Below are positions 6,521 to 31,010 of a stretch of 32,224 bases of DNA, one piece after another (the first letter of the stretch is position 1; the number at the start of each line of letters is the position of its first letter). The stretch comes from Thermodesulfobacteriota bacterium (GTDB lineage: Bacteria; Desulfobacterota; WTBG01; CAIYCZ01; CAIRTM01): positions 1 to 32,224 of the forward strand of contig JANQGV010000019.1 in assembly GCA_028282925.1 (NCBI GenBank). The letters run 5' to 3'. Below the pieces are notes generated by a model. The model was given only the letters and a program-made list of their open reading frames with translations, had not been told where the DNA came from and did no database searches. Made by a program: the position numbers and the translations under genes.

Positions 6521-6770
6521 GTTACGGACTTTCTTAATCCCTTTGCAACGCAGCCGAGTGCAACGATTTCAGACGGGATAAGGGGCGACATGTTTGAGTC
6601 ACGGCCTGCCGGGACGAGTTTGTTGCCCCGCCGGATGAAATCGTGCCGCGAGGGCATCCCGACTTTCAGGAGGGACAAGTTGCAGGGCGCCCTTTCTTTT
6701 CCCCCTTTTCTTTGGAGCGAGCAAAGAAAAGGGGTTGAAGACGCGTAGCGTCTTATAAACGTATTCTTCC
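6521..6770. repeat. R2 repeat, copy 1 (long imperfect palindrome)
   Basis: This copy shares extended blocks with 9121-9440 and 30594-31010, including GCAACGCAGCCGAGTGCAAC, the GGGGCGACATGT block and AATCGTGCCGCGAGGG. Its left part is a large imperfect hairpin (GATTTCAGACGG and GGGGCGACA pairing with TGTTGCCCC and GATGAAATC). Its right part is a second hairpin (CCCCTTTTCTTTG with CAAAGAAAAGGGG) followed by GACGCGTAGCGTC. No protein is encoded. It lies between the candidate RNA and the beta-propeller gene. Confidence 0.75.
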
Positions 6771-9120: not shown

Positions 9121-9440
9121 GCTCTAAGTCCGGACGGGTTTTTATTCCCATTGCAACGCAGCCGAGTGCAACGGTTTCAGACGGAGAAAAGGGGCGACAT
9201 GTCTGAGTCCCGGCCTGCCCGGACGAGTTTGTTGCCCCGCCGGCTGAAATCGTGCCGCGAGGGTATCCCGCCGGTGGCGGGACACGTTGCAGGGTGCCTT
9301 TTCTTTTGCCTACTTTGAGTCAATCCGCCGGATTGACCGCTTGCAGCTCTTTGTCGCAAACAAAAAACAAAGTGCGTAGCTCTTGACACCGCAGGTGGCA
9401 AGACAAAGTAGGAGGAACAAGCTATAAACTACCCGTTCTT
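9121..9440. repeat. R2 repeat, copy 2, with extra hairpins
   Basis: The left two thirds match R2 copy 1 (GCAACGCAGCCGAGTGCAAC, the GGGGCGACATGT block, AATCGTGCCGCGAGGG). The right arm is diverged: CCTACTTTG and CAAAGTAGG are the stem ends, and about 80 bp lie between them. That interval holds three more small palindromes: GTCAATCCG-C-CGGATTGAC, an ACTTTG/CAAAGT type pair, and TCTTGACACC/GGTGGCAAGA. No protein is encoded. Confidence 0.7.
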
Positions 9441-9469
9441 CCCAAGGACAGCTAAAAGCCCTCATAGAC

Positions 9470-9642
9470 GTAATGAAAAACAACGCAGCAAATGAGCATT
9501 TTCCAACCATTCAATGGGAGGCTGTCGAAAAATATTCAGATTCAAGGCGTGCAAATGTTTAAGGAATGAGGCGTACTCAGTTGTACGCCGCAGTGACGAA
9601 GAGTGAGTGCAACGCAGTAGATGGGCGTTCTCCGACAGTCTC
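9470..9642. repeat. R1 repeat, copy B, preceded by the tail of another copy
   Basis: The complete copy is 9518-9642, starting GAGGCTGTCG and ending CGACAGTCTC (imperfect terminal inverted repeats), with the core TTCAGATTCAAGGCGTGC and CGCAGTGACGAAGAGTGAG. Bases about 9470-9517 (GCAGCAAATGAGCATTTTCC, then CCATTCAATGG) are the right end of a second, decayed copy. The same tandem junction occurs at 14320-14330. The gap 9030-9759 contains only R2 and R1 material plus the leader of the next gene. Confidence 0.7.
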
Positions 9643-11342: not shown

Positions 11343-11611
11343 GCCTGCTGCTCCTTTCTTGTGTTTCCGTCTTAAATACCAGATTAGTTTAAACTTGAGA
11401 TAGTACACGTTTCCTTCATAAGAGTAAAGTTTTTATCATCCGCCCGGGTCTGAACCGTCGGCCCCACCGTCCCGGAAAGCAAAAAAATAAGAATATTCAA
11501 CATATTATGCGTTGTTGCAATAGGCCCGGTTTTCTGCTTGAATAGAACCCGTGCTGTTCATTAATAGAGGTGCTGTTTTTTCGCAATCACACATTGGGTC
11601 GACCGGGTTCT

Positions 11612-13807
11612 ATGAATCTTCAACATATTGTCCATTCCCATGTCGTATTGCTTTTGTTTGCCGTAGGCATATTCTTTATACTTCAAAGCATTCTGCTGCA
11701 TACAAAAGCCACCCGCTACTTCTACCTCTCCGTTGCCGTGTGCGGCCTCGGTCTGTATACCCTGTTCGCCATTGTGCTTTCCCTTGACGTGCCTCCGGAA
11801 AAAATTGTTTTCTACCATCGTTTCCGGGGTATCAGCCTCATTGTGGCTGCGTCGGCCTGGTTTTTCTATGTGTATGATATTTATTTCGGTATAAGCCGCA
11901 TACCGAAGCTGTTTCTTGGCATTTCATGTGCCGCCATCGCAACCTCTCCGTTCAACATTTTCATGTCGCAGCCGGTCAATTCGGTACAGGTGGATATCCT
12001 GCAGTCGACGTTCACCTATCATTTCGCCACCCCGGGCCCCGCCTATACACTCTATGTCATACTGGCAATGGGGTGTGCGGTAGCATGCATTGTACAGGTG
12101 TACCGCAACAGCAATCCCCCGGTGAAAAAAATATACAGCCTGCTGGCATGCCTGCCCCAGATCATAGCTGGTATTCACGACCTGTCCGTCATCAACGGCA
12201 TAGTACATAATATAACCATTTTCGAATATTTAACGACCCTGTTTGTCGTTTTTATTTTTATCCTCGAAATCGTACAGGAGCAGCAAAATCGCCGACAGGT
12301 GCAGGAACTTAATCAGAAGCTCGAAGAAAAGGTGCGTGAACGCACACGGGGGCTTGAACAAACAGAAGCACGATTCCGGACCATTGCCGAAACATCCCCG
12401 GAAGCAATACTGATAACCGATGCAAAGGGCACTATTATATTCTGCAACAAAGCGACAACCGACATCTTCGGCTACCGGGAAGATGAACTGATGCACAACC
12501 CGGTCGATATCCTGATGACCGAAACACAGCGCCGGGCCTACCTGACCGGTAAAACCGCCGGTTTTTTCGGCATTTACGGCCAGGGGCCGTTTGCAAGTGT
12601 TGCTAAAAGAAAAGACGGAACAGAGCTGCCTATTGAGCTGTCGCTGTCGCACTGGGCCGCCAATGAGCTTTCCTATTCAAGCCTGATCATCAGAGACATC
12701 TCCCGTCGGAAAGCCGCTGAAAAAGCGCTGCTGGAAAGCGAGGAACGCTTTCGCGCCATTGCTGAAACCACCCCCGATGCCGTGGTGACCGCAGACTGGC
12801 AGGGCAATATAAGCTTCTGGAACAAAGGTGCTGAAAACCTGTTCGGATACAGCAGAGAGGAGGCCCTGGGTCGACCGGCAAACATGCTTATACCCCCGCA
12901 AAACAACAGGGACATACCGTCTGAACTCAAAGCCATTGCCGATGACGAAAAGCTGGATGAAATTGAAAAAACCATTGAAGGTCCGGCAGTGAGGAAAGAC
13001 GGTACGATTATCCCCATTGAGATATCCCGTTCGTTATGGATAACCGATGAAAAAATAACCTTATGCGCAATCATGCGTAACATCAGTTCCGCCAAACAGA
13101 CCGAGGCTCAGCTTCAGTCGTATCAGCAGCAGTTGAGCTCTCTCACCTCTGAACTCCTGCTGACCGAAGAACGGGAACGTCGTAACATTTCCACCGAACT
13201 GCACGACCGCATCGGTCAGGTGCTTATTCTGGCTAAAATGAAAATGGGCGGCGTCATTCACACCGCCCCGGAGGAAAAGACCGGTGAACTCGGGTATGTG
13301 GATTCCATTCTCGAACAAACGATTGAGGATACACGGTCCCTCACTTTTGAGATCAGTCCGCCCATCCTCTACGACATGGGTCTTGAACCGGCCCTTGAAT
13401 GGCAGCTCGAACAGATCAAGGAGCACCAGGACATAGAGACCGTTTTTCAGAGCGACGACCGGGACAAACCACTGTCCGACACCTGCAAGATCGTCCTGTT
13501 CAAGGCCGCCCGGGAGCTGCTTTTTAACGTAATAAAACACGCCCGGGCCGATAAAGTGCTGCTGTCCGTTCTGCGTGTAGACAGCTGCATCCGCATTACC
13601 GTTTCAGACAACGGTGTCGGGTTTGACTCGGAATCACGGCCCAGCGCCGGGCCGGGCAACCTGACCTTCGGGCACTTCAGCATCCGTGAAAGAATGAGCC
13701 ACCTGGGCGGAACATTTCACTGCACATCAACCCCGGGCGAAGGCACCCAGATAGACCTTGTGGCCCCACTTGAGCTGACGGCAACCCCTTCGGCAGACAG
13801 TGCATGA
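11612..13807 (+). CDS. 7TM-PAS-PAS sensor histidine kinase, HisKA_3 (NarX/DegS) class
   Basis: A 731-residue membrane kinase. About seven hydrophobic segments occupy residues 8-240, followed by a coiled coil (EEKVRERTRGLEQTEARF), two PAS domains each opening with RFRxIAETxPxA (about 255-375 and 380-500), and a HisKA_3 domain with phospho-acceptor His531 in NISTELHDRIGQ. The HATPase domain has N-box ELLFNVIKHA and G-box DNGVGFD, with FGHFSIRERM typical of this class. ATG 11612 is chosen by alignment to the paralogue at 17164; a GTG at 11570 is in frame but lacks a usable ribosome site. Such kinases normally pair with LuxR/NarL-type regulators, and none is present. A 98-aa gene overlaps its stop codon. 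Confidence 0.92.
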   Translation: MNLQHIVHSHVVLLLFAVGIFFILQSILLHTKATRYFYLSVAVCGLGLYTLFAIVLSLDVPPEKIVFYHRFRGISLIVAASAWFFYVYDIYFGISRIPKLFLGISCAAIATSPFNIFMSQPVNSVQVDILQSTFTYHFATPGPAYTLYVILAMGCAVACIVQVYRNSNPPVKKIYSLLACLPQIIAGIHDLSVINGIVHNITIFEYLTTLFVVFIFILEIVQEQQNRRQVQELNQKLEEKVRERTRGLEQTEARFRTIAETSPEAILITDAKGTIIFCNKATTDIFGYREDELMHNPVDILMTETQRRAYLTGKTAGFFGIYGQGPFASVAKRKDGTELPIELSLSHWAANELSYSSLIIRDISRRKAAEKALLESEERFRAIAETTPDAVVTADWQGNISFWNKGAENLFGYSREEALGRPANMLIPPQNNRDIPSELKAIADDEKLDEIEKTIEGPAVRKDGTIIPIEISRSLWITDEKITLCAIMRNISSAKQTEAQLQSYQQQLSSLTSELLLTEERERRNISTELHDRIGQVLILAKMKMGGVIHTAPEEKTGELGYVDSILEQTIEDTRSLTFEISPPILYDMGLEPALEWQLEQIKEHQDIETVFQSDDRDKPLSDTCKIVLFKAARELLFNVIKHARADKVLLSVLRVDSCIRITVSDNGVGFDSESRPSAGPGNLTFGHFSIRERMSHLGGTFHCTSTPGEGTQIDLVAPLELTATPSADSA

Positions 13808-14100: not shown

Positions 14101-14177
14101 CAACAGAATGCCACCCTCCTTCTCTTCCCTACACCTTACAACTTCTGTTCAACGGCAAAATCCCACAGGACTCTAAG

Positions 14178-14451
14178 AATGCCGAAGAATGTTCAGATAC
14201 AAGGCGCGCGAGACCCTGAGGAACGAGGCGCTTAGTCCCAAATCAAGCGAGGACTAACGAACAAGTACGCCGCAGTGACGAGGGGTGAATGCAGCAAAGG
14301 AAATCAGCATTTTCTGCCATTCAATGGAAGGCTGTCGGAAAATATTCAGATTCAAGGCGTGCGAATGTTTGAGGAATGAGGCGTACTCAGTTGTACACCG
14401 CAGTGACGAAACAGAGCACAACGCAGAAGATGGGTGTTTTCCGGCAGCCTC
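14178..14451. repeat. R1 repeats, copies C1 and C2 in tandem, with an R3 fragment
   Basis: C1 (about 14178-14320) is decayed and carries a 34-bp insertion at about 14230-14263 that starts TTAGTCCCAAATCAAGCGAG, like the left end of R3, and closes on itself (TTAGTCC/GGACTAA). C2 (14328-14451) is complete, from AAGGCTGTCGG to CCGGCAGCCTC. C2 ends three bases before the stop codon of the following minus-strand gene. The 354-bp gap between genes holds nothing else recognisable. Confidence 0.72.
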
Positions 14452-14454
14452 CCC

Positions 14455-17113: not shown

Positions 17114-17163
17114 ATACAAATATTTAGGCCGTGCGCACGGCAGGCAAAAATCAACCGGCATAC

Positions 17164-19359
17164 ATGATGAGCATACAGCAGGCGTTATATTCATATGTTG
17201 TACTCCTTCTGGTATCCCTGAGCACCTTTTACCTGCTCAGGACCATCCTGGTACAAAAAAAACCGGAGCGGGATTTTTATATAGCCTTTACATCACTGAG
17301 CGGCTCCCTCTTCACCCTGTGCACCATCTTCCTGTCTACTACCGCCATGTCTCCCGAGATGGTCATGGTGTGTCACAGGTTCCGCGTGGTCTTTCTGATT
17401 ATCCTGGTTTCTTCCTGGTTCTTTTTTGTATTTGATGTCTGCTTAAAGGAAAGCCTCATACCGAGGCTGTTGTTCTGGCTGTCGCTGGTCCTGCTTGCCT
17501 GCGTGCCCTTTGATGTTTACCTTGCCCTGCCCATACAGCAGGTCCGGGCTACCGCCTTCGGTATTCATTTTATCTACTCCTTTGGAACACCGGGGCCTGC
17601 ATATGTATGCTATGCAATTATGGCTAATGTGTTTGTCGCTGCCGGCATCATCACCATAATGCGCAGCACTACCTCTCTTCTGAAAAAAACGTTTTGCATC
17701 ATTGCGTTTGTACCCCAAACCGTCGCCGGTTTGTACGACCAGGCGATCATCCTGGGCTTTTTCCCCGGTGTTATCATTTTTGAATTCATGGCCACGTTCT
17801 TTATCATCCTGATATGCATCTCAGAAATTATGCAGGAGCAGCAAATGCAGATACAGCTGCAGGAACTGAACCGCAGGCTTGAGGAAAAAGTCCGGCAGCG
17901 CACAGCCGTCCTGGAGCAAAGCAAGGAGCGCTTTCGCTCACTTACCGAGACAACCCCGGATGCCATCCTGATTACCGCTGAAAACGGCACCATTGTTTTC
18001 TGCAACAAAGCTTCCGAACACATCTTCGGCTACACCGAAAGCGAATTGATCGATGCATCGGCCGAAATTCTGATGGACACGCAGGACCGGCAGGCATACA
18101 GGGACACCAAAGCCGGCCTCAAACCTGCGGTACATTTCGGCGGAAAAGACGAACCGTTTGAAAGCGTTGCCCGGAAAAAAGACGGGCACCTTGTAGCGGT
18201 GGAACTGTCGTTGTCGCACTGGCAGATTGAAGAAAAAAAATATGCCAGCCTGGTCGCCAGGGACATCACCCTGCGAAAACGGGCCGAACAGGCCTTGAGT
18301 GAAAGCGAGGAACGCTTTCGGGCCATTGCGGAAACAACTCCCGATGCCGTTATTACCGCCGACTGGCGCGGTATAATCAGTTACTGGAACAAAGCCGCCG
18401 AAGCCGTTTTCGGCTACACAAGGAAAGAGGCCCTTGGGCAATGGGGGCATATGCTGCTCCCCCAAACGGACCAGGAGAAAGAAACCTCCGGCAAAACAAA
18501 AGGATTTCTTGGAAAAAACACCGTCGGTGGACTGAACGAAACAACTGAGACAACCGCCAGGTGTAGCGACGGCACCATAATACCGATTGAGGTCTCCCAA
18601 TCGACCTGGGAAACCGGCGGACAGACAACCTTCTGCGCCATTATTCGCGATATTTCATCCCGCAAGCAGGCAGAGCATAAGTTGCGGGACTATCAGCAAC
18701 AGCTCAGCACCCTTGCCTCGGAATTGCTGCTGACTGAAGAACGGGAACGCCGCAATATCGCAACAGAGCTGCACGACCGCATCGGCCAGTCACTGATCCT
18801 GGCAAAGATGAAGGTGAGCAGCTTAATGCACTCCCTGCCGGAAGGCGACCAAACCCATGCAGAGCTCGGCAGTGTCCGCTCGATCATCGAGCATACAATT
18901 GAAGACACACGCTCACTCACCTTTGAGCTCAGCCCTCCCATTCTGTATGACATGGGGCTGGAGCCGGCAATTGAATGGTTACTGGAAAAAAGCAAAGCAC
19001 ATCAGAATTTCGCCACCGATTTCACAAGCGATTCCAAAAACAAACCGTTGCACCATTCCTGTCGTATTTTTTTATTCCAGGCAACCCGGGAATTGTTGAC
19101 GAACATCACCAAGCACGCCCGGGCAAAAAAGGTTCAGATTGCTGTACGCAAAGAGAATGAAACCATACGCATCACCGTTACCGATGACGGCATAGGCTTT
19201 GATACGGCATCGCTGGCAACGCCGTCAAACGCCGGAACGTTCGGACACTTCAGCATTCGCGAGCGGATGAATCACCTGGGCGGATCATTCAGCTGCTCAT
19301 CTGTTCCGGGGCTGGGCACCAGGGTTGACCTGGTGGCGCCTCTGGAGAGCGGGGCATAA
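17164..19359 (+). CDS. 7TM-PAS-PAS sensor histidine kinase, paralogue of the kinase at 11612
   Basis: A 731-residue kinase collinear with the one at 11612. It has seven hydrophobic segments (from YVVLLLVSLSTFYLLRTILV to FEFMATFFIILICISEIM), coiled coil, PAS1 (RFRSLTETTPDAILIT), PAS2 (RFRAIAETTPDAVITADW) and HisKA_3 with His537 in NIATELHDRIGQ. The ATPase part has ELLTNITKHA and DDGIGFD. Near-identical stretches (LLLTEERERRNI, TELHDRIGQ, PPILYDMGLEPA) show a fairly old duplication, since the sensor part is much less alike. Starts at 17164 and 17167 are both possible and neither has a strong ribosome site. No response regulator gene is adjacent, so it is an orphan kinase. Confidence 0.92.
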   Translation: MMSIQQALYSYVVLLLVSLSTFYLLRTILVQKKPERDFYIAFTSLSGSLFTLCTIFLSTTAMSPEMVMVCHRFRVVFLIILVSSWFFFVFDVCLKESLIPRLLFWLSLVLLACVPFDVYLALPIQQVRATAFGIHFIYSFGTPGPAYVCYAIMANVFVAAGIITIMRSTTSLLKKTFCIIAFVPQTVAGLYDQAIILGFFPGVIIFEFMATFFIILICISEIMQEQQMQIQLQELNRRLEEKVRQRTAVLEQSKERFRSLTETTPDAILITAENGTIVFCNKASEHIFGYTESELIDASAEILMDTQDRQAYRDTKAGLKPAVHFGGKDEPFESVARKKDGHLVAVELSLSHWQIEEKKYASLVARDITLRKRAEQALSESEERFRAIAETTPDAVITADWRGIISYWNKAAEAVFGYTRKEALGQWGHMLLPQTDQEKETSGKTKGFLGKNTVGGLNETTETTARCSDGTIIPIEVSQSTWETGGQTTFCAIIRDISSRKQAEHKLRDYQQQLSTLASELLLTEERERRNIATELHDRIGQSLILAKMKVSSLMHSLPEGDQTHAELGSVRSIIEHTIEDTRSLTFELSPPILYDMGLEPAIEWLLEKSKAHQNFATDFTSDSKNKPLHHSCRIFLFQATRELLTNITKHARAKKVQIAVRKENETIRITVTDDGIGFDTASLATPSNAGTFGHFSIRERMNHLGGSFSCSSVPGLGTRVDLVAPLESGA

Positions 19360-21539: not shown

Positions 21540-21801
21540 AAAGGAACGGATTAATGAGGATAAGTGTTTCCCGACAGTCTCCTAGACCCGAATCAAACGA
21601 ACATTCGTCGCGAGGATGTTGCAATGGCCGGAGATACCGGCTGCATGAACAAAAGCTTTTCATGTTGCCACAAGGAGAGACTGGTGGAAAATGTTCAGAT
21701 ACAAGGCGCGCGATATCCTGAGGAATAAGGCGTACTTGACTGTACGTCGCAGTGACGAAGGATGAGTGCAACGCAGGAGGTGGGCGTTTTCCGACAGTCT
21801 C
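21540..21801. repeat. R1 fragment, R3 fragment and R1 copy D
   Basis: Three pieces lie in the 434-bp gap downstream of the HDOD gene. The right end of an R1 copy (about 21540-21581, ending CCCGACAGTCTC) is followed by a left-end fragment of R3 (TAGACCCGAATCAAACGA, 21583 to about 21660). The complete R1 copy D (21677-21801) runs from GAGACTGGTGG to CCGACAGTCTC. Copy D ends at 21801, the base before the stop codon of the HDOD gene (21802-21804). Confidence 0.75.
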
Positions 21802-23542: not shown

Positions 23543-23706
23543 AGGTTATATCATCCCACTCGGCCGGCCGCAAGGAAGCCTGAAAATAGATAGATTTTAC
23601 AGAACATTATAGGCGATTTACCTTTTCACATGCCCTGTACTACAGATTCGGTACATATCGCGTATCGGATGCGAAAACCATACGAAAGGCCCATCAGGCA
23701 GGGGTC

Positions 23707-23809
23707 TAGCCCCAAATCAAGCGAGGATTCGTAGCGAGGGTGCTGAAATGCCTGTAGATTCGGACATTACGGCAGCCGCAGTAGAATTCTTCGCTTGTTT
23801 TGGGGCTGA
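23707..23809. repeat. R3 MITE-like element, short copy
   Basis: Inverted ends TAGCCCCAAATCAAGCGAGG and CGCTTGTTTTGGGGCTGA enclose about 65 bp. Compared with the copy at 30739 it lacks about 78 bp from the middle, while both shoulders (GATTCGTAGCGAGGG and ACGGCAGCCGCAGTAGAATT) are kept. It ends two bases before the stop codon of the J-domain gene. No protein is encoded. Confidence 0.75.
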
Positions 23810-25066: not shown

Positions 25067-26167
25067 CTAAGGGGCCTGTTGTAAAAGCGCATCAATTTTG
25101 CTCTGCATTGCCGCTACATCAAGCCAGGTCTCTACGGTATCGACAATACCATCCTGCCTGATCAGATACGCGCAGTTAGGGCACGGGCCATACGTACACC
25201 ACACAGGATTATTGTCGTCGCCAGGCACAAGGTCGTCGATGAGTATCAACTGGTTTCCTTCCAGCAGCAATTTTGTATCCCGGGCTGCGGCAAGCCGTTC
25301 GGCATAGGTCAACGGCTGATGTTTGGAGCTGTATTCGCCCTCCCATACCGTGCCGGTATACGGACTGACATCCGGAGACTTGGGATGCGGCTCAATAACA
25401 TAGATATGCACGATGTGCACGCGGTCGGCATAGGTTTCCGATCCGGCGTAGGTCTTTTCGGCAAGCTCATTGAGAGCAGGCACGCTGCTCCGATAGGGCG
25501 GTCAGGTATAGGAACCGAATACCAGCAGCACCGGTTTTGTCTGAAGCAGGCCGGCCAGGCTGTATTCCTTTTGATCAGTGTCCTCCAGGCTGAATGCAAC
25601 GGCTTTTTCACCTTTGCTCAGCGCCGTTGTTAAAGACGCTTTGTTGCCGACGGTAAACTCCTTGTCCGGCCAGCCAAAACAGCCCGACTCCAGATCGTCG
25701 GACAGCTCGACATCATCCTCAATTTCAGTTTCATTGTCATCGTCGGTTTCGTTATCCGGGTCCGGATCCTCTGAAGAATTTTCACACATCCCGGTACCCT
25801 GCGAAGCAAAGTGACAGGCAACGCATTCCACGGCAGCGGTAAAGCCGTGTTTGTTTTGATGGCAGGCTATGCAGGCGTCTTCCCGGGAATGCGTGTGGGA
25901 GCCGTCGGTCTCACCGGGAACACAGGCACCGTTTGCCCCGTGGCAAACAACACATTCAGGGGGCGTATCGACGGTATGGTCTTCAACCGGAAGCACGTGA
26001 CAGGCACTGCAGTTTGGATTTTTCCAGCCCGGGTGTTCGGAATCAAGCACCTCGGGGTCGCCTCCATTCGGCAGATTACAGCCCGCAGCAACAAGTATCG
26101 CTGTGAGCAACGCCAAAAGCGCAAAAACAATTATACTCAATGCCTCTGCTTTTTTAAAAACATGCAT
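25067..26167 (-). CDS. Probable selenoprotein: tetrahaem cytochrome c lipoprotein fused to a deiodinase-like thioredoxin-fold domain
   Basis: One gene is proposed across an in-phase TGA at 25502-25504, read as selenocysteine (Sec222 of 366). Residues 1-30 are a lipoprotein signal ending VAAGC. Four CxxCH haem sites follow at 53-57, 72-76, 99-103 and 115-119, then an Asp/Glu-rich linker (about 130-165). The C-terminal half is a redoxin: VAFSLEDTDQKEYSLAGLL, PVLLVFGSYT-U-PPYRSSVPAL, then IVHIYVIEPHP and VWCTYGPCPNCAYLI. FGS-x-T-U-PP with a later Y-I-x-E-x-HP is the deiodinase signature. The start at 26167 has an AGGAGG site. The gene is exported and membrane-anchored, probably an electron-fed thiol/selenol reductase. 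If TGA were a true stop, the redoxin would lose its active site. The substrate is unknown. Confidence 0.75.
25473..25504 (-). promoter_or_regulatory. UGA codon and bacterial SECIS-like hairpin
   Basis: On the minus strand TGA (25504-25502) is followed after 10 nt by GGAGCAG (25491-25485), loop CGTGC and CTGCTCT (25479-25473). This gives a 7-bp stem with one G-U pair. The loop contains GU, and its G lies about 19 nt after the codon. This fits known bacterial SECIS elements, which sit just after the UGA inside the coding region and present a G/GU in a small apical loop to SelB. Confidence 0.65.
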
Positions 26168-26453
26168 ACCGCCCTCCCCTCCTGGTACCGCTCGGTTTTA
26201 AAATAGTCGGCAGACACTATTTGTATATAGCATCCCGACCGCCCCCGGGCAACCACCAAAGTTCCACCCCGTACACATTCACGGACACACCGCCTTATGA
26301 AAGCAAACGAAAACCTGAATATTCTGCACGTCTAAATACGCCAATGTGCTGTTTCCTTATGGGCAAAACTGTGCTACTATAGGTATGTTAAGGACAAAAT
26401 GCAAAACACCGTTCCAGTCCGGCTGGAGCACACTTGAACAAAAGGAGAACGTA
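26168..26453. other. Divergent intergenic region
   Basis: This 286-bp gap separates the divergent selenoprotein gene and the 123-aa gene. It contains no open frame of note. A weak -10-like TACTAT lies at 26375-26380 for the plus-strand gene. The minus strand has an AT-rich TGCTATATAC stretch that could serve the selenoprotein gene. No clear operator or riboswitch was found. Confidence 0.3.
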
Positions 26454-30593: not shown

Positions 30594-31010
30594 GTTACGG
30601 GCTTTCTTGATTCCCATTGCAACGCAGCCGAGTGCAGCGATTTCAGGAGGAAATAAGGGTCGACATGTTTGAGCCCTGTTCTTCAGGGGCGAGTTTGTTG
30701 ACCCGCCGACTGAAATCGTGCCGCGAGGGTATCCCGCTTAGGCCCAAAACAAGCGAGGATTCGTAGCGAGGGGACTGAAATGCTCGGAGATACTGGCTGC
30801 ACGGACCGGAAGCCGAAGAATCGTACTCATCTGTACGTTGATGAGGCTGCAGGGAGTACAGACTGTAGATTTGGGCATTACGGCAGCCGCAGTAGAATTT
30901 TTCGCTTGATTTGGGCCTAGGGCGGGACACGTTGCAGGCGCCATTTCTTTCCCCCCTTTCTTTGAGGCGAACAAAGAAAGGGGGTAGAAGACGCGTAGCG
31001 TCTTATAATT
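30594..31010. repeat. R2 repeat, copy 3, split by an R3 element
   Basis: The left half (GTTACGGGCTTTCTTGATTC to GAGGGTATCCCGCT, 30594-30738) and the right half (GGGCGGGACACGTTGCAGG to GACGCGTAGCGTCTTATAA, 30920-31010) match R2 copies 1 and 2. Between them sits a complete R3 element. The end lies 40 bp from the stop codon of sfsA. The 574-bp gap between genes otherwise holds about 110 bp of unremarkable DNA. Confidence 0.8.
30739..30919. mobile_element. R3 MITE-like element, full-length copy, inserted in R2
   Basis: The 181-bp unit begins TAGGCCCAAAACAAGCGAGG and ends TCGCTTGATTTGGGCCTA, so it has inverted ends of about 16 bp and TA at both borders. This resembles non-autonomous elements mobilised by IS630/Tc1-type transposases, which duplicate TA. 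There is no coding capacity. Related copies lie at 23707-23809 and 21583-21660, and a 30-bp end fragment lies inside R1 near 14230. Confidence 0.65.

Follow-up and report, generated by a model that had tools for sequence, protein, structure and literature searches.

A stretch of 32,224 nt from a Thermodesulfobacteriota bacterium (the window) encodes a protein that joins a tetrahaem c-type cytochrome to a deiodinase-like redoxin carrying selenocysteine (Sec), and we regard the reality of this selenoprotein fusion, as read from the sequence, as almost certain. Its architecture is well supported. For our best explanation as a whole, an exported, lipid-anchored and haem-fed selenoprotein with Se-S recycling, we see about an even chance, and the haem-to-selenium reductase mechanism within it, for which we infer both the direction of the electrons and the substrate, falls a little short of that.

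Gene structure and export

The earlier note had placed a single frame, broken by one TGA, at 25067-26167. These coordinates are correct, with the gene on the minus strand (Table 1); the plus-strand reading of the same interval is junk. In the list of open reading frames made with translation table 11 the gene appears as two, of 221 aa (26167-25502) and 138 aa (25483-25067), and the joined 366-aa translation contains what the earlier note had described, namely a lipoprotein with four CxxCH motifs, an acidic linker and a redoxin with FGSYT-U-PPY.

Table 1. Positions in the window of the fusion gene, its parts and the dispersed repeats.
Feature	Position	Strand	Remarks
Whole gene, tetrahaem cytochrome c / deiodinase-like selenoprotein	25067..26167	-	366 aa, TGA read as Sec
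Start ATG; in-frame TGA; terminal TAG	26167-26165; 25504-25502; 25069-25067	-	
Shine-Dalgarno AGGAGG	26178..26183	-	10 nt ahead of ATG, read from sequence
Export leader, residues 1-30	26078..26167	-	ends in lipobox-like AAGC (C30)
Tetrahaem c-type cytochrome domain, residues 45-128	25784..26035	-	
Acidic linker, residues 129-162	25682..25783	-	length varies among homologues; conserved C128 and C163 on either side
Deiodinase-like thioredoxin-fold domain, residues 163-366	25070..25681	-	
In-frame TGA = Sec222	25502..25504	-	same codon in L009, L013 and L010
Predicted bacterial SECIS hairpin	25473..25491	-	nt 11-29 after UGA; loop CGUGC at 25484-25480
CTYGPCPNC, residues 324-332	25172..25198	-	at site of deiodinase YGAxPERLY element
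Dispersed repeats	2767-2996, 6532-6758, 9141-9642, 14176-14452, 21583-21801, 23706-23807, 30607-31008		

The hydrophobic leader of the fusion protein is likely that of a lipoprotein, and in two of the homologous fusions (L013 and L009) a Cys stands behind a hydrophobic leader at a position comparable to C30. Only in L013 does the protein end in an extra C-terminal tail (SGVFNELGLILIPVGAVIFLRILRRKR), which includes a hydrophobic stretch and RILRRKR; its likeness to a membrane-anchoring or surface-sorting signal supports an extracytoplasmic place for the fusion protein. The fusion gene of L009 (at about 4926; the same as L012 at 1474) apparently starts at an ATT behind AAGGAG, and no ATG, GTG or TTG lies in frame ahead of the leader in the stretch that was read.

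Elsewhere in the window, between genes, several families of diverged dispersed repeats (55-131 nt, 70-91% identical), some in conserved pairs, resemble an intergenic element that is mobile or rich in repeats. Two PAS-domain histidine-kinase-like genes, at 17131-19359 and 11570-13807, share a 223-nt stretch with 72% identity and are probably the product of a gene duplication.

Reading of the in-frame TGA as selenocysteine

The reading of the TGA as Sec and not as a stop, proposed in the earlier note, is borne out by the homologues, by selection on the codons behind it and by the Sec machinery of the genome. Three independent homologous fusions and five haem-less relatives all have a TGA at this codon, and every homologue reads through it; no Cys form was found among them, nor a Cys or other sense codon at this position. 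Codons downstream of the TGA have a dN of 0.19-0.33 at a dS above 2 or saturated, which indicates strong purifying selection, and across the fusions conservation is higher behind the TGA than ahead of it. The host genome (G000, 96% complete) contains selA, selB, selD and tRNA-Sec (selC), all over their cut-offs, with the tRNA-Sec gene (C284:1752-1843) just upstream of selA (C284:1938-3269) and a Sec-containing formate dehydrogenase (HQARI-U-HS) adjoining selB. The selD gene of this genome (C9:6964-7887, L044) is itself interrupted by an in-frame TGA, in keeping with a Sec-containing SelD.

The UGA is probably decoded by means of a SECIS hairpin on its 3' side, a reading supported by sequence and covariation. 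The candidate element, GGAGCAG-CGUGC-CUGCUCU, has a folding energy of -9.3 kcal/mol when 33-38 nt are folded. The bacterial SECIS model asks for a loop of 3-9 nt with a G in its first two positions, an upper stem of 4-16 bp, a distance of 16-37 nt from UGA to loop and an energy of -7.5 kcal/mol or lower (PMC13188914); here the loop has 5 nt with G second, the stem 7 bp, the distance is 17 nt and the energy lies below the limit. The corresponding stems read GCUCAG/CUGAGC in L009, GGGCAG/CUGCCC in L010 and, behind a 3-nt insertion, GGGCAG/CUGCCU in L013. Across these four sequences all 24 of 24 cells are paired, with two pairs altered on both sides, compared with 29-58% of cells in slid controls; the shuffle control for pairing (14/500) is modest because only four sequences enter it. 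Hairpins occupy this place in the haem-less relatives L058 and L059 as well. Taken alone the hairpin is weak evidence, since 8% of the TGAs in the window have one of equal length and folds of at least 46 nt favour a different structure.

That share of TGAs with an equal hairpin, and the fact that the case began with one TGA in a draft genome, are what speaks for regarding the TGA at 25502-25504 as a normal stop codon, a mistake in sequencing or the lesion of a pseudogene. The same TGA in independent genomes rules out a sequencing error, and its constancy there, with neither Cys nor a sense codon in its place, together with the downstream purifying selection, the covarying SECIS and the complete Sec machinery, makes this whole family of explanations hardly credible. 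Of the three findings named in the earlier note as fatal to the Sec reading (a genome without selB/selC, an error at this TGA, homologues that all end there), none was observed.

A selenium-dependent switch, with which our main explanation could be compatible, is another use that the cell might make of the UGA: when selenium is lacking, termination would release a 221-aa tetrahaem lipoprotein acting as a lone electron carrier, and when selenium is available the full enzyme would be made. The part before the TGA (ORF 25502-26167) is indeed a complete exported cytochrome domain, but such a short product would break off in the thioredoxin fold, within its central strand, and it is the part after the TGA that is better conserved, so that we consider such a switch very unlikely.

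The tetrahaem cytochrome domain

The claim of a tetrahaem c-type cytochrome domain behind an export leader stands. Its CxxCH motifs lie at C53-H57, C72-H76, C99-H103 and C115-H119, and all four fusion sequences share these four motifs and four invariant spare histidines (H45, H64, H93 and H107), an arrangement that would suit four bis-His haems with one spare His each. With several CxxCH motifs, enough distal ligands and a leader peptide, the domain has the features of multihaem c-type cytochromes, and cytochrome c assembly proteins are encoded in the host genome. Among solved structures, the closest in sequence is the multihaem cytochrome c 3ov0 (E 2.4e-4), a c7-type protein of Geobacter; the Pfam family Cytochrom_CIII scores below its cut-off.

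The deiodinase-like redoxin domain

The earlier note had called the redoxin deiodinase-like, and this holds for its motifs and its place in the tree, although not for membership of the curated families. The active site FGSYTUPPY and the element YVIEPHP fit the FGSxT-U-PP and Y-x-x-E-x-HP patterns of deiodinases; the YGAxPERLY-type element is absent, the aligned position reading YGPCPNCAYLI. Both family models fall below their cut-offs (NCBIfam deiodinase_rel NF038285, E 5.7e-18, 65.5 bits against 250; Pfam T4_deiodinase PF00837, E 5.6e-5, 23.0 bits against 27), and the domain is thus a divergent relative of these families and not a catalogued member.

A mixed profile of the four fusion domains and two haem-less relatives, searched against the PDB, ranks Dio3 (4.4e-15) and Dio2 (2.8e-10) above every thioredoxin. 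A profile built from the fusions only does not favour Dio over Trx, and the deiodinase link therefore rests on the intermediates, all of them haem-less Sec proteins of the same phylum: L059 (= L073), L074 (= L058), L075, L076 and L077, of which the last four are classical DIO-like proteins. L059 combines its Sec-containing deiodinase-like domain with a distinct N-terminal extracytoplasmic domain of unfamiliar type and carries WCTYGYLPNCAYFI; judged by its sequence, it is an intermediate between the classical DIO-like proteins and the haem fusions. Alignments of the fusion domains extend over 166 columns with L059 and L058 and over 56 with a TlpA-type protein. In the tree, where Trx is represented by two rows and one of these is long, the fusions and the DIO-like proteins are separated from Trx with support of 99/96, and the fusions are monophyletic with 78/95. 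Taken together, alignment and tree point to DIO-like proteins, and not Trx/TlpA, as those with which the redoxin shares its descent.

Two other assignments of the domain were rejected. In a typical peroxiredoxin (AhpC/TSA) the site would read PxxxTxxC/U, whereas LVFGSYTU has Ser and not Thr at -3; the PF00578 score is just under its cut-off. A TlpA/ResA thioredoxin would have CxxC, in place of which the fusion has U-PPY with no second Cys, and the tree disagrees with this assignment. Structural models made by AlphaFold from a three-sequence alignment (pLDDT 46 over the full length, 52 for the domain) are too poor to place C329 relative to Sec222 or the haems, and a fold search with these models put TlpA/ResA entries on top and Dio3 at rank 14.

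Conserved cysteines and a possible mechanism

Apart from the haem motifs and Sec, six cysteines are conserved (C82, C128, C163, C324, C329 and C332). C128 and C163 may form a disulfide across the variable linker and so hold the two domains together. The last three belong to the segment CTYGPCPNCAYLI, which sits at the position of the deiodinase YGAxPERLY element. Within it C329, ahead of the presumed cis-Pro330, is common to all the fusions and the G012 fragment described below and occurs in none of the haem-less relatives, where the aligned residue is Leu (L059) or Ile, Val, Leu or Lys (classical relatives). In thioredoxin folds the residue preceding the cis-proline adjoins the active-site residue, which makes C329 a candidate resolving Cys, and its restriction to the haem-fused clade suggests an extra redox residue tied to the presence of the haems.

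We propose that the selenolate of Sec222 would attack an electrophile, for which peroxides, activated disulfides and C-halogen compounds come into question, and that Cys329 would then displace the product and form a selenenylsulfide (Se-S bond) with Sec222. The haems, charged from the electron-transfer pool of the envelope, would reduce this bond with two electrons to selenolate and thiol, and the haem module would thereby take the role that a thiol or thioredoxin cofactor has in ordinary deiodinases and peroxiredoxins. The second half-reaction of Dio itself is thought to involve an external thiol as well as selenenylsulfide/disulfide steps (PMC11592359). A direct haem-to-selenium wire through Sec222-Cys329, which would bring respiratory instead of thiol electrons to reactions in the envelope, possibly including reductive dehalogenation of organics, is a tentative proposal, to be taken as a serious possibility.

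c-type haems pass electrons in both directions, and the CPNC cysteines together with Sec could make a disulfide-relay centre; the centre might then oxidise thiols, or else a compound of reduced sulfur or selenium, while the haems carry the electrons away. Deiodinases and Sec peroxidases, however, are reductases (PMC11592359), selenols are strong reductants, and no gene for a partner was found, so that this opposite flow seems rather unlikely to us.

The conserved cysteines also bear on a third proposal, in which Sec and the clustered Cys would bind metals or metalloids such as selenite, tellurite or mercury at the cell surface, or reduce them, with the haems as donor. It draws on analogy with ExtKL, a multihaem cytochrome with a proposed Sec and a role in selenite reduction (PMC5877670), and on the presence of six non-haem Cys. 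The ExtKL family model (NF040886) is unmatched by the fusion, however, and a thioredoxin-type site with a single Sec better suits small-molecule redox catalysis, which leaves the metalloid role unlikely.

Should the haem-to-selenium reading be true, a two-electron Se-S partner would be added to the one-electron toolbox of haems. A natural fusion of this kind suggests that a respiratory chain can power selenium chemistry outside the cytoplasm. It also bears on the function of bacterial deiodinase-like proteins in that it lets their electron donor be guessed, and substrates could therefore be screened by following haem oxidation.

Distribution and gene neighbourhood

The search for homologues with the same cytochrome fusion, suggested in the earlier note, yielded three other genomes (L009, the same gene as L012; L013; L010) and one C-terminal fragment at a contig edge (G012). 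The three fusions are 53-55% identical to the window protein, and the fragment 66%. The contig scan used one query sequence and may have missed more distant fusions. Across the phylum the distribution is patchy: the fusion gene or a fragment of it occurs in 4 of the 395 genomes sampled, the window's own counted. None of the eight other members of the window genome's family carries it, and the viral and plasmid collections contain no relatives.

No conserved operon was seen, the neighbours differ among the fusion genomes, and they give no hint of a donor or a substrate. The fusion has a J-domain gene close by both in the window and in L050, and an AOR-type gene is nearby in L052 as it is, at 8 kb, in the window; neither resemblance seemed strong enough to use. 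The host genome has no reductive dehalogenase (RdhA) over the cut-off, which leaves the idea of a halide substrate without genomic support. At 96% completeness it also shows no DsrA over the cut-off and hence no sign of dissimilatory sulfate reduction.

Comparison with known systems

The closest known proteins are the bacterial deiodinase-like selenoproteins (PF00837/NF038285; PMC1088965, PMC2398784, PMC13188914), known since 2005 (PMC1088965). They share with the fusion the thioredoxin-type domain, FGSxT-U-PP, YxxExHP and a SECIS located within the coding sequence, and form one tree group with it; the fusion differs in that PCPNCAYL with added cysteines replaces the PERLY element, in its tetrahaem cytochrome and lipoprotein leader, and in scores below the curated cut-offs. 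The five haem-less relatives lack both the haems and C329. Animal iodothyronine deiodinases (Dio2 9h48, Dio3 4tr3) have the same catalytic motif and align through the intermediates, but at an identity of 30-40% or lower, and they use an external thiol cofactor and have no haem. TlpA/ResA-type thioredoxins resemble the fusion as exported thioredoxin folds and differ from it in having CxxC rather than a single Sec, in the short alignment and in the tree split given above. Another protein of the same phylum (L057) has a multihaem region behind a thioredoxin-like domain of the Cys type (KFGSIYCSTC); with its haems on the C-terminal side and its CxxC it is apparently a separate redoxin-multihaem fusion of another arrangement.

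The literature searched, mostly papers available outside subscription, does not report a deiodinase-like domain combined with a multihaem cytochrome, in agreement with the earlier note, whose author knew of no described protein with both. Sec in multihaem cytochromes has been listed for ExtKL and others (PMC13188914; PMC5877670). ExtKL of Geobacter (NF040886; PMC5877670) is likewise a multihaem c-type cytochrome with a proposed Sec, but it has five haems, belongs to an ext cluster with a porin-like protein and has no match to the deiodinase-like domain; we rejected membership of the fusion in this family, as NF040886 gave no match up to E = 1. Since Sec multihaem cytochromes were already known, the new point of the fusion is its deiodinase-like partner and not the combination of Sec with haem.
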